From contig JAPWJX010000003.1 of the NCBI GenBank assembly GCA_028283855.1, positions 744,001 to 808,000 on the forward strand: DNA of 64,000 nucleotides. The letters run 5' to 3'. The notes below the pieces were generated by a model that worked only from the letters and a program-made list of their open reading frames with translations, had not been told where the DNA came from and searched no databases. A program made the position numbers and the translations under genes. Of the stretch, positions 3,662-26,146 are shown one piece after another (position 1 is the stretch's first letter; each line of letters opens with the position of its first letter). This DNA comes from Verrucomicrobium sp. (GTDB taxonomy: Bacteria > Verrucomicrobiota > Verrucomicrobiia > Methylacidiphilales > GAS474).

Positions 3662-4327
3662 ATGAACCCGCATGACGCGATTAAGGAATGTGTCGAGTTC
3701 GGTAAGGACTGTGTTGAGATGGGGACCGAGCATGTCCGTGAAACCGTGGATTCCGCCAAGGAGAAGCGTTTGGGTGATTTGGCGCTCAACATGTTTCCGG
3801 TTGTGGCGCTGCTGGGAACGGGGTTGGTGATAAGCTCCGAGGCCACTTCCCTGGTGCATGTGGGCCAGGAGCGGGAGGCCGTCACGCAGCGGCTCGATGC
3901 GGCCAGCACGAACGAGATCCAAAAAGCGCTCCAATCGGGCCAATTGCGGAATTTGCAGATTTCCTACAAGGGAGGGTTGTTTGAAGGCGCCAAGACCCTG
4001 CCCGCCCAGTGCGCGGCGGCGGGCGAGAACGTCGCCTGCGAAATTCCGATGACTTCGGAGCAATTCCAGGAAAAAGGCGGCTTGAAGATTCCCGTGGGAG
4101 AAAAAGATCCGGTGAACGCCCCGTGCCTGCCTTCCGGCAACGGCGTCCTGTGCCGCGTCGAGCTGACCCCGGCCCAGTTTCAGAATGCGGTGCGCGCCTC
4201 GGTCACGCAGCAGACCGCAGGAGAGGTGGACCGAATCATGAAGCCGAAAGAGGACGCCGTGCATCAGCAGATCAACAATACGGCGAACGCGATCGCCCTC
4301 ACGCAGGCCGTCACGTCCGGCCGCTGA
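3662..4327 (+). CDS. Unknown membrane-anchored protein with two C-x8-C repeats
   Basis: I do not recognise a family. The 221-residue product has a charged N-terminal helix and one membrane segment (about 40-59). A region beyond it carries two similar units: C117-x8-C126 and C155-x8-C164, each followed by a segment ending in TxxQFQ (TSEQFQ and TPAQFQ). Such Cys pairs suggest two disulfide-bonded units outside the cytoplasm, on a type II-like anchor. It is preceded by the 13-bp element and has no Shine-Dalgarno sequence. The next exported gene starts 51 bp downstream and may share the transcript. Confidence 0.75.
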   Translation: MNPHDAIKECVEFGKDCVEMGTEHVRETVDSAKEKRLGDLALNMFPVVALLGTGLVISSEATSLVHVGQEREAVTQRLDAASTNEIQKALQSGQLRNLQISYKGGLFEGAKTLPAQCAAAGENVACEIPMTSEQFQEKGGLKIPVGEKDPVNAPCLPSGNGVLCRVELTPAQFQNAVRASVTQQTAGEVDRIMKPKEDAVHQQINNTANAIALTQAVTSGR

Positions 4328-25560: not shown

Positions 25561-25588
25561 TTTACAAACCGCCGCGATTTGTTAAATT
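25561..25588 (+). promoter_or_regulatory. Candidate promoter of the 67-aa Cys-rich gene
   Basis: -35 TTTACA (25561-25566), 16-bp spacer, -10 TAAATT (25583-25588), ending 8 bp before ATG 25597. The sequence is locally AT-rich against a GC-rich background. It predicts a leaderless mRNA. Confidence 0.45.
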
Positions 25589-25596
25589 AATCCCGT

Positions 25597-25800
25597 ATGA
25601 GCGAACATTCTTGTGGATCGGGCTGCGGCTGCGGCCCCAAGGCCTCCTCCGCCCCCACGGCGACCTCCATCCAGAACGGCAAGGGCTCCGCTCCCCGCAA
25701 CATGAGCAAGACCTTCCGTTCCAACTATGACGGGATCCGATGGGACCAGCGCGGCAAGGCGCGGAAAGAAGGGGAAAAGTTCGTGAAGGTCTATTCCTAA
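25597..25800 (+). CDS. Small Cys/Gly N-terminal protein, unknown
   Basis: 67 residues, no recognised family. The N-terminus has a compact Cys cluster (SCGSGCGCG, Cys at 6, 10 and 12) that could bind metal. A Ser/Thr/Ala linker follows and then a basic-aromatic tail (FRSNYDGIRWDQRGKARKEGEKFVKVY) that looks nucleic-acid or protein binding. It has its own promoter candidate after lpd and is followed by the inverted-repeat element. Its size makes it easy to miss, but the start, promoter and composition argue that it is real. Confidence 0.55.
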   Translation: MSEHSCGSGCGCGPKASSAPTATSIQNGKGSAPRNMSKTFRSNYDGIRWDQRGKARKEGEKFVKVYS

Positions 25801-25827
25801 TCGACGAACCACCAGCCGAAACCCACC

Positions 25828-26103
25828 AGGGTCCGCTCTTCCTTCAGAAAGAGGCGCGTTGTTCTTAAAAAGCCTTCTATCAAGGCGCGAGGCGACGCAG
25901 TGTGTCCATTGTGACACATAAGTCGCCGAGCAACGCGGAGAGAAGGCTTTTTAAGAATAACCCTTCGGGCCGGGGTCCGTTGCCCCGTCCCCGTCGTTAC
26001 TCAAGGCCTTACGTATTCCGCTAATACGCTGCGGCCTTTCGTGCCTAGGGGAGCGGGCCAACGGCCCGCCGGCGCGCCTCTTTCTGAAGGAAGAGCGGAC
26101 CCT
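25828..26103. repeat. 276-bp MITE-like inverted-repeat element
   Basis: Ends are a perfect 31-bp inverted repeat (25828-25858 and 26073-26103). Inside, a second near-palindrome has perfect 17-bp arms (25862-25878 and 25941-25957) enclosing further complementary arms (GGCGAC with GTCGCC, TGTGTC with GACACA). The right half holds smaller hairpins (CGTATT with AATACG, AAGGCC with GGCCTT, GCGGGCC with GGCCCGC). No protein-coding capacity is evident. It fills most of the 346-bp gap between the Cys-rich gene and argD. No clear target-site duplication is visible. A non-autonomous mobile element or a strongly folded RNA or bidirectional terminator are the options. Confidence 0.7.
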
Positions 26104-26146
26104 AGCCGCGACGGAACCTTCCGCCGCGGCATTTTTTTTGACTCCG

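Follow-up and report, generated by a model that had tools for sequence, protein, structure and literature searches.

The locus at positions 25828-26103 of the window (the whole 64,000-nt stretch of Verrucomicrobium sp. DNA analysed here) raises the question of what a 276-bp block with perfect terminal inverted repeats (TIRs) and many internal hairpins might be. The initial annotation favoured a miniature inverted-repeat transposable element (MITE), and also allowed for a structured RNA or a bidirectional terminator.

Structure and surroundings of the element in the window

The outer arms of the block, at 25828-25858 (+ strand) and 26073-26103 (- strand), pair without a mismatch over all 31 positions, which bears out the coordinates, the length and the perfect 31-bp ends first given for it. 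When up to three mismatches were allowed, the 31-mer arm was located at two sites only in the 64 kb, both of them the arms themselves, and at none in 100 shuffles. A scan of the window for inverted pairs (seed 14, length of at least 22, arms no more than 1 kb apart) returned three, namely the outer pair, the pair inside it (92%) and one 83% pair. The inner inverted repeat begins directly inside the left arm and forms the basal stem of a first hairpin, A (25858-25961, + strand; arms 25858-25881 and 25938-25961), a stem marked by compensatory changes. It is 24 nt long and includes a 17-bp perfect stretch, and so contains the second palindrome with 17-bp perfect arms that had been described. The domain of hairpin A extends over 25856-25975 (+ strand), as delimited by covariation and by the match of our covariance model R1 (G000:C3:769856-769975). 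Sequence and fold place a mini-hairpin, CCCTTCGGG, at 25961-25969 (+ strand), between A and a second hairpin, B, whose domain spans 25970-26072 on the - strand and whose inverted reading holds the loop motif of A with 3 mismatches in 17.

The predicted RNA fold of the element reaches -198.6 kcal/mol, compared with -117.2 +/- 5.9 in 100 shuffles (z -13.9), and the opposite strand gives z -14.8; the rich internal folding noted at the outset is therefore present on both strands. ORFs overlapping the element look like chance ORFs of GC-rich DNA, in keeping with the earlier view that the block holds no coding sequence. At the left junction CA (25827-25828) stands in place of the TA of TA-class relatives, while the right junction is TA (26103-26104); with flanks of CCA and TAG the copy was scored as having no target-site duplication (row L160), as had been observed before. 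By analogy with its relatives, the transposon end of this copy would begin at G 25829.

The neighbours of the element are a pyridine-nucleotide-disulphide oxidoreductase (earlier called lpd), a 67-aa ORF (25597-25797) for which no Pfam match was found, and a class-III aminotransferase (earlier called argD). The 67-aa ORF has a Gly/Cys-rich start, and a promoter-like site is located just upstream of it (25561-25588). Outside the element, at 26105-26139 (+ strand), sequence and fold reveal a GC hairpin followed by eight T, which the terminator scan did not list and which probably ends transcription of the 67-aa gene. The element sits between that gene and the GC hairpin with its T-run. In two relatives the argD locus has, judging from sequence, a different upstream neighbourhood, so no empty site was available for comparison.

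Copies in the genome and the genus

The window genome (G000) contains four dispersed copies of the family. Read and folded individually, the four have similar interiors, but their outer arms differ in every copy. The genome search that the initial annotation had called for thus yielded further copies, but none among those in G000 was found to share the 31-bp end. With a length between 50 and 500 bp, terminal inverted repeats, no transposase gene and dispersed copies in its genome, the window element has several of the features by which MITEs are recognised. Ends common to the copies of one genome are absent in G000; such shared ends are present in G001, G063, G147 and G279. All three genomes of the genus that were examined (G000, G001 and G002, the window genome counted) harbour copies, and none were detected by blastn at E<=0.001 in the remaining 59 of the 62 genomes of the order.

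Among the copies of the genus the conserved stretch begins with GCGTTG and ends with GGCGCG; outside it, the arms of ~26-30 bp belong to several unrelated classes. Within the single-contig genome G001, copy L037 agrees with L039 and L043 at 217 of 219 core positions and at only 9 of 26 arm positions, whereas L039 and L043 agree with L041 and L045 at 25 of 26 arm positions with cores that are 83-84% alike. Where arms differ, the junction is exact, at GCG/CGC. In a wider comparison of copies, which like those for the arm, loop and alignment analyses were chosen by hand from longer match lists, 168 pairs had A domains at least 80% alike, and in 36 of them the arms were less than 60% alike, the noise level for shuffled arms being a median of 46% with a 95th percentile of 56%. 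In G147, however, arms and cores travel together in all seven copies compared, so end exchange is not evident everywhere, and fast arm evolution may account for such differences instead. One copy in G002 (L046; G002:C460, minus strand, ~1395-1670) has a left end of the GGGTCTGTCCACG class and a right end of the GAGCCTGTTACCCCC class, with TA beside both. What distinguishes the family is a conserved core with variable ends, the reverse of the usual pattern of conservation in MITEs, where the ends are kept and the interior drifts.

Shorter forms of the family consist of A only, of B only or of nearly bare arms. L145 (G063:C501:435-482) is a near-bare palindrome of 48 bp with the G063 end class and TTA on both sides, and has no core. 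Copy c3 of the window genome (G000:C4:92801-92978; reverse complement of L031, ~4020-4203) has shorter arms and no TA duplication; the start codon (ATG) of the next ORF lies within its right arm, immediately behind an in-frame TAA. At the right end of L123 (G065 C44), what seems to be part of another element follows directly, with ends of a different class.

Distribution beyond the genus

Searching the genome_contigs collection with a 20-base pattern from the core gave 20 loci: nine in MAG I3b_bin-317 (which is G002), four in SRB-291 (labelled Candidatus Methylacidiphilales), three in proteobacterial MAGs (Lysobacteraceae, Betaproteobacteria and Sulfuricella) and four that were judged to be chance matches. 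Twelve of these loci were folded, the remaining eight being G002 copies that were examined separately. The covariance model R1 was then derived from 13 A domains, all of them from G000-G002, L097 having been dropped because it was misaligned. Across 26 sources, full-length copies from Proteobacteria and SRB-291 scored 41-69 bits, and the degraded Lysobacteraceae copies L122 and L128 scored 21 and 17 bits; of the four chance loci, one was absent from the list and the other three received 14-18 bits. Several matches in G032 and G065 coincide (C71, C73, C90, C109 and C169), and the two are apparently one genome, SRB-291.

Within the class of the window genome, R1 matched at least 28 of 286 genomes and at least 23 of 137 genera when up to 12 candidates per genome were scored, and these include further families of the same order in which blastn had detected nothing. 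In the class of the betaproteobacterial relative G063, at least 52 of 369 genomes were matched, G063 counted and up to 9 candidates per genome scored.

Among plasmids, the window element gave only matches of 28-32 bases, in three records, and none was obtained for the Sulfuricella element. The betaproteobacterial element had one plasmid match (over 18%) and no phage match. For three elements from Gammaproteobacteria, 6, 4 and 5 plasmid records were matched, respectively; one gammaproteobacterial element searched in phages and E. coli had no match there, and the exact core pattern was found at no site in viral_contigs. Family-like intergenic stretches are seen on plasmids of Azotobacter chroococcum (pAcX50f; L308, 2501-2711), Methylophaga frappieri (L309, 2501-2630) and Pseudomonas aeruginosa (L310, 2501-2640), none with a listed feature in a plasmid gene table that is itself incomplete.

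Shape of the core

The recurrent layout of the family is an outer stem, hairpin A, the mini-hairpin and hairpin B. With two hairpins set around a mini-hairpin, a four-way cross can form from each of the two DNA strands, and we refer to the copies as cross elements. The A unit is mostly 108-124 nt long, with a few listed matches longer or partial. In the alignment of 137 R1 matches, which comprises 100 loci with 37 rows being second matches and is biased toward pairing in that it was fitted to the structure, 91.0% of the pair cells are standard, compared with 57.0% after shuffling, and two-sided changes are present in 38 of the 39 pairs.

In 34 of the 100 loci R1 also matched the opposite strand beside the first match. 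Since a hairpin resembles its own complement, the relation between A and B was tested separately by means of the A loop motif. With at most 3 mismatches the motif is found in 19 of 99 reverse-complemented B domains, in none of the 99 B domains read forward, in none of the 99 reverse-complemented A domains and in 1 of 495 shuffles; with at most 4 mismatches the counts are 53, 4 and 11 of 99, and 14 of 495 shuffles. For part of the family at least, B is thus related to A in inverted orientation; the window copy has 3 mismatches. An apparent reverse-complement self-match, considered as a link between A and B, was rejected, as it proved to be hairpin A matching itself. The mini-hairpin loop is TTC in 41 of 99 copies, another loop in 48, and was not found in 10. 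UNCG-type loops (TTC or TCC) account for 48 of the 99 and GNA-type loops (GAA, GCA or GGA) for 24.

Ends and target-site duplications

Arms were counted as bounding an element at a score of at least 16, the best of 291 shuffles having reached 10. By this measure 95 of 121 copies carry bounding arms, a tally that leaves out copies too short or unlocated and the 8 of 105 that are cut by contig ends. Among the first 97 copies 77 were armed, with a median arm of 31 bp and a median span of 275 bp. The arms, ~30 bp long, mostly open with G after TA or TNA. Over 2986 arm pairs there are 168 mismatches, of which 61 are G-T, 44 A-C and 63 of other kinds.

Flanks could be scored in 87 copies. Identical TNA triplets were found at 17, where shuffling gave a mean of 5.2 and a maximum of 13; a further 30 have TA on both sides, and 40, the window copy among them, have neither. 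The 47 copies consistent with a duplication compare with a mean of 31.5 and a maximum of 40 in 2000 trials with re-paired flanks. In copy c2, removal of the element together with one TA converts the upstream stop codon TAG into TAA. The reading as a MITE is upheld for the family, which is multi-copy, dispersed, bounded by TIRs and in 47 of 87 copies flanked by TA or TNA, but the window copy itself is without a duplication.

Candidate transposase partners

A transposase with matching ends, which the initial annotation proposed to look for, was not recovered from the window genome: neither G000 nor the single-contig G001 contains a PF01609 or PF13358 transposase at E<=0.01, yet G001 carries near-identical copies of the element. 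An IS630-type partner was rejected, there being no PF13358 in G000-G002. PF01609 transposases are present in 19 of the 22 genomes tested, a set that includes G166, which has no R1 match, and in 18 of the 21 element carriers.

The ends of 30 IS loci were examined for matches to those of the elements. An 835-bp IS in G279 shares 16 of its first 16 end bases with the cross elements of that genome, and its transposase belongs to the IS5 family (NF033580, 2.7e-62; DUF4096 and DDE_Tnp_1). In G007 a PF01609 element, whose transposase frame is split across two ORFs, shares 15 of 16. IS5-family members encode a transposase, unlike the cross elements, and the likeness between the two rests on the ends. 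Further same-genome matches, out of 16, were 14 in G159, 13 in G032, 11 in G138 and G147, 8 in G031 and G002 and 4 in G249, so that the match is exact in only one of nine genomes. Between genomes, the G032 IS matches the crosses of G031 at 16 of 16 (both with genus label g12), as does the G279 IS an element of G032. The excess of same-genome matches over permutation is modest (p = 0.03), based as it is on nine genomes with ends picked and aligned by hand.

Comparison with known elements

No match to the element was obtained in Rfam, either at the gathering threshold for the whole window or at E<=5 for 25800-26130. A description of the family was likewise not found in Rfam or in the literature searched, with subscription papers and ISfinder outside the scope of that search.

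Correia elements (CREE) have TIRs of ~26 bp, target TA and are defined as a family by their ends, which sets them apart by description from the present family with its conserved core and variable ends. Like the present family, the CREE of Neisseria are small, intergenic, bounded by TIRs and present in many copies, and their transcripts are reported to be cleaved at the TIRs by RNase III (PMC10969869). The same review describes QMITE2 of Coxiella burnetii, which resembles the family in its TIRs of 23-29 bp, core of 113-145 bp and strong predicted fold (PMC10969869); by description it has direct repeats of 7-9 bp, unlike the TA or TNA and the cross-phylum range seen here. The intergenic repeats R0, R2 and R6 of Pseudomonas fluorescens also consist of a core flanked by inverted repeats, and for R0 and R2 mobilisation in trans by a resident IS has been proposed, but at a described 89, 110 and 177 bp they are shorter than the 276 bp here (PMC2718517). 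Elements with Tn3-family ends that lack a transposase gene and are reportedly mobilised in trans are similar in kind, although the ends here are IS5-type (PMC4133298, PMC13367494). Judged on sequence features, the family would be a MITE in the broad sense, with an inverted pattern of conservation.

Origin and nature of the family

In our judgement the block is probably a non-autonomous, TIR-bounded, MITE-like element of a widespread family that is moved in trans by IS5-type transposases and whose ends have been exchanged. The outer arms would be the ends on which DDE transposases of IS5 type, provided in trans, act, and insertion would duplicate TA or TNA, as the tallies of flanks support. The ~215-bp core, with its two hairpins around a mini-hairpin and a B often like an inverted A, may be the long-lived part that persists while outer arms are replaced, a step suggested more weakly than movement in trans. 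Exchange would most likely begin when strand switching or one-sided recombination introduces a new end; a template switch would then copy this arm over its partner or the reverse, so that the two stay almost perfectly matched. For RNA genes, template switching has been argued to be able to create and maintain perfect stems (PMC8794818). The G002 copy with ends of two classes (L046) is a possible intermediate of such an exchange, unless it is a chimera of assembly in this 590-contig MAG. As the search of its genome yielded no partner transposase, the window copy is probably no longer mobile. A core conserved across phyla is unexpected for a decayed IS derivative, and this counts against the reading given here. 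Tentatively, and aware that it may well be wrong, we put forward that the core is a selfish module of ancient origin, tied to no single transposase, which has lasted in several phyla by swapping its ends again and again for those of the IS5-type transposon resident in each host, and that the copying of arms is template switching at the DNA level promoted by the core's own cross shape.

The same conservation would suit a core that is a selected structured RNA or RNA-processing site, transcribed from its neighbours and acting in cis or in trans, for which the transposon ends are a mere vehicle. The core and its internal-loop sequence are kept across phyla at nearly constant length, the A stem has the two-sided changes and excess of standard pairs given above, its basal part has 119 G-U cells to 52 A-C cells, and nearly half of the copies have a UNCG-type mini-hairpin loop. 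However, the alignment behind the G-U excess was fitted with an RNA model and pools 100 first matches with 37 later ones, and five adjacent pairs account for 74 of the 119 G-U cells. Among mismatches of the outer arms, whose detection involved no RNA model, G-T and A-C are less unequal (61 and 44). Many copies have other mini-hairpin loops, gene contexts vary among the copies looked at, and Rfam has no match even at E<=5. The fold is equally strong on the other strand, and because both strands fold alike the choice between RNA and DNA leans to DNA; we regard a selected RNA as unlikely. A host bidirectional transcription terminator or REP-type element, the former suggested earlier for the interval between lpd, the 67-aa gene and argD, is scarcely credible. 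The element does have strong hairpins and lies behind a stop codon, and a scan found two terminator-like sites within it, but both are on the - strand, with 0.8 expected by chance, and none were found on the + strand, while a GC hairpin with a T-run is already present outside. The family's length, arms and duplications are also unlike those of REPs. REP/REPIN sequences are described as palindromes of 20-40 bp, one end of which bears a GTAG or CGTC tag (PMC3733652), and the window element, at 276 bp with 31-bp arms, has on inspection neither tag at its outer ends.

Two further accounts concern the arms. The core could itself be mobile and enter palindromic MITEs that are already in place, exactly at their midpoint, giving end exchange without any copying of arms. 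The exact GCG/CGC junctions where arms differ would be expected from this, as would the nearly bare palindrome with G063 ends (L145). That palindrome, though, retains an unequal remnant of the inner arm, as after deletion, and in the one class searched (the alpha class of G001 and G002) core-poor pairs looked like deletion forms; nor is there a candidate enzyme, and we consider such a module improbable, more so than a selected RNA. Alternatively, the outer arms could be inverted copies of host flanks made at each insertion, in line with the arms of c1, c3 and L047, which have no second copy in the sets examined, and with the ATG of the following ORF within the right arm of c3. Against this, one arm class is common to loci with unrelated flanks, arms mostly begin with G after TA or TNA and measure ~30 bp, and some match the ends of resident transposons. 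Since arm classes recur at many loci, duplication of host flanks was set aside as very improbable, and for the recurrent classes it is largely refuted.

Implications

If movement in trans with exchanged ends is the right reading, the cross elements would be a very widely distributed non-coding bacterial mobile element, found by one genus-level model in two classes. It would also follow that a non-autonomous element can switch the transposase on which it relies. The natural pairs within the family, with the same core and different ends or the same ends and a different core, are suited to studying how perfect inverted repeats originate and are maintained.
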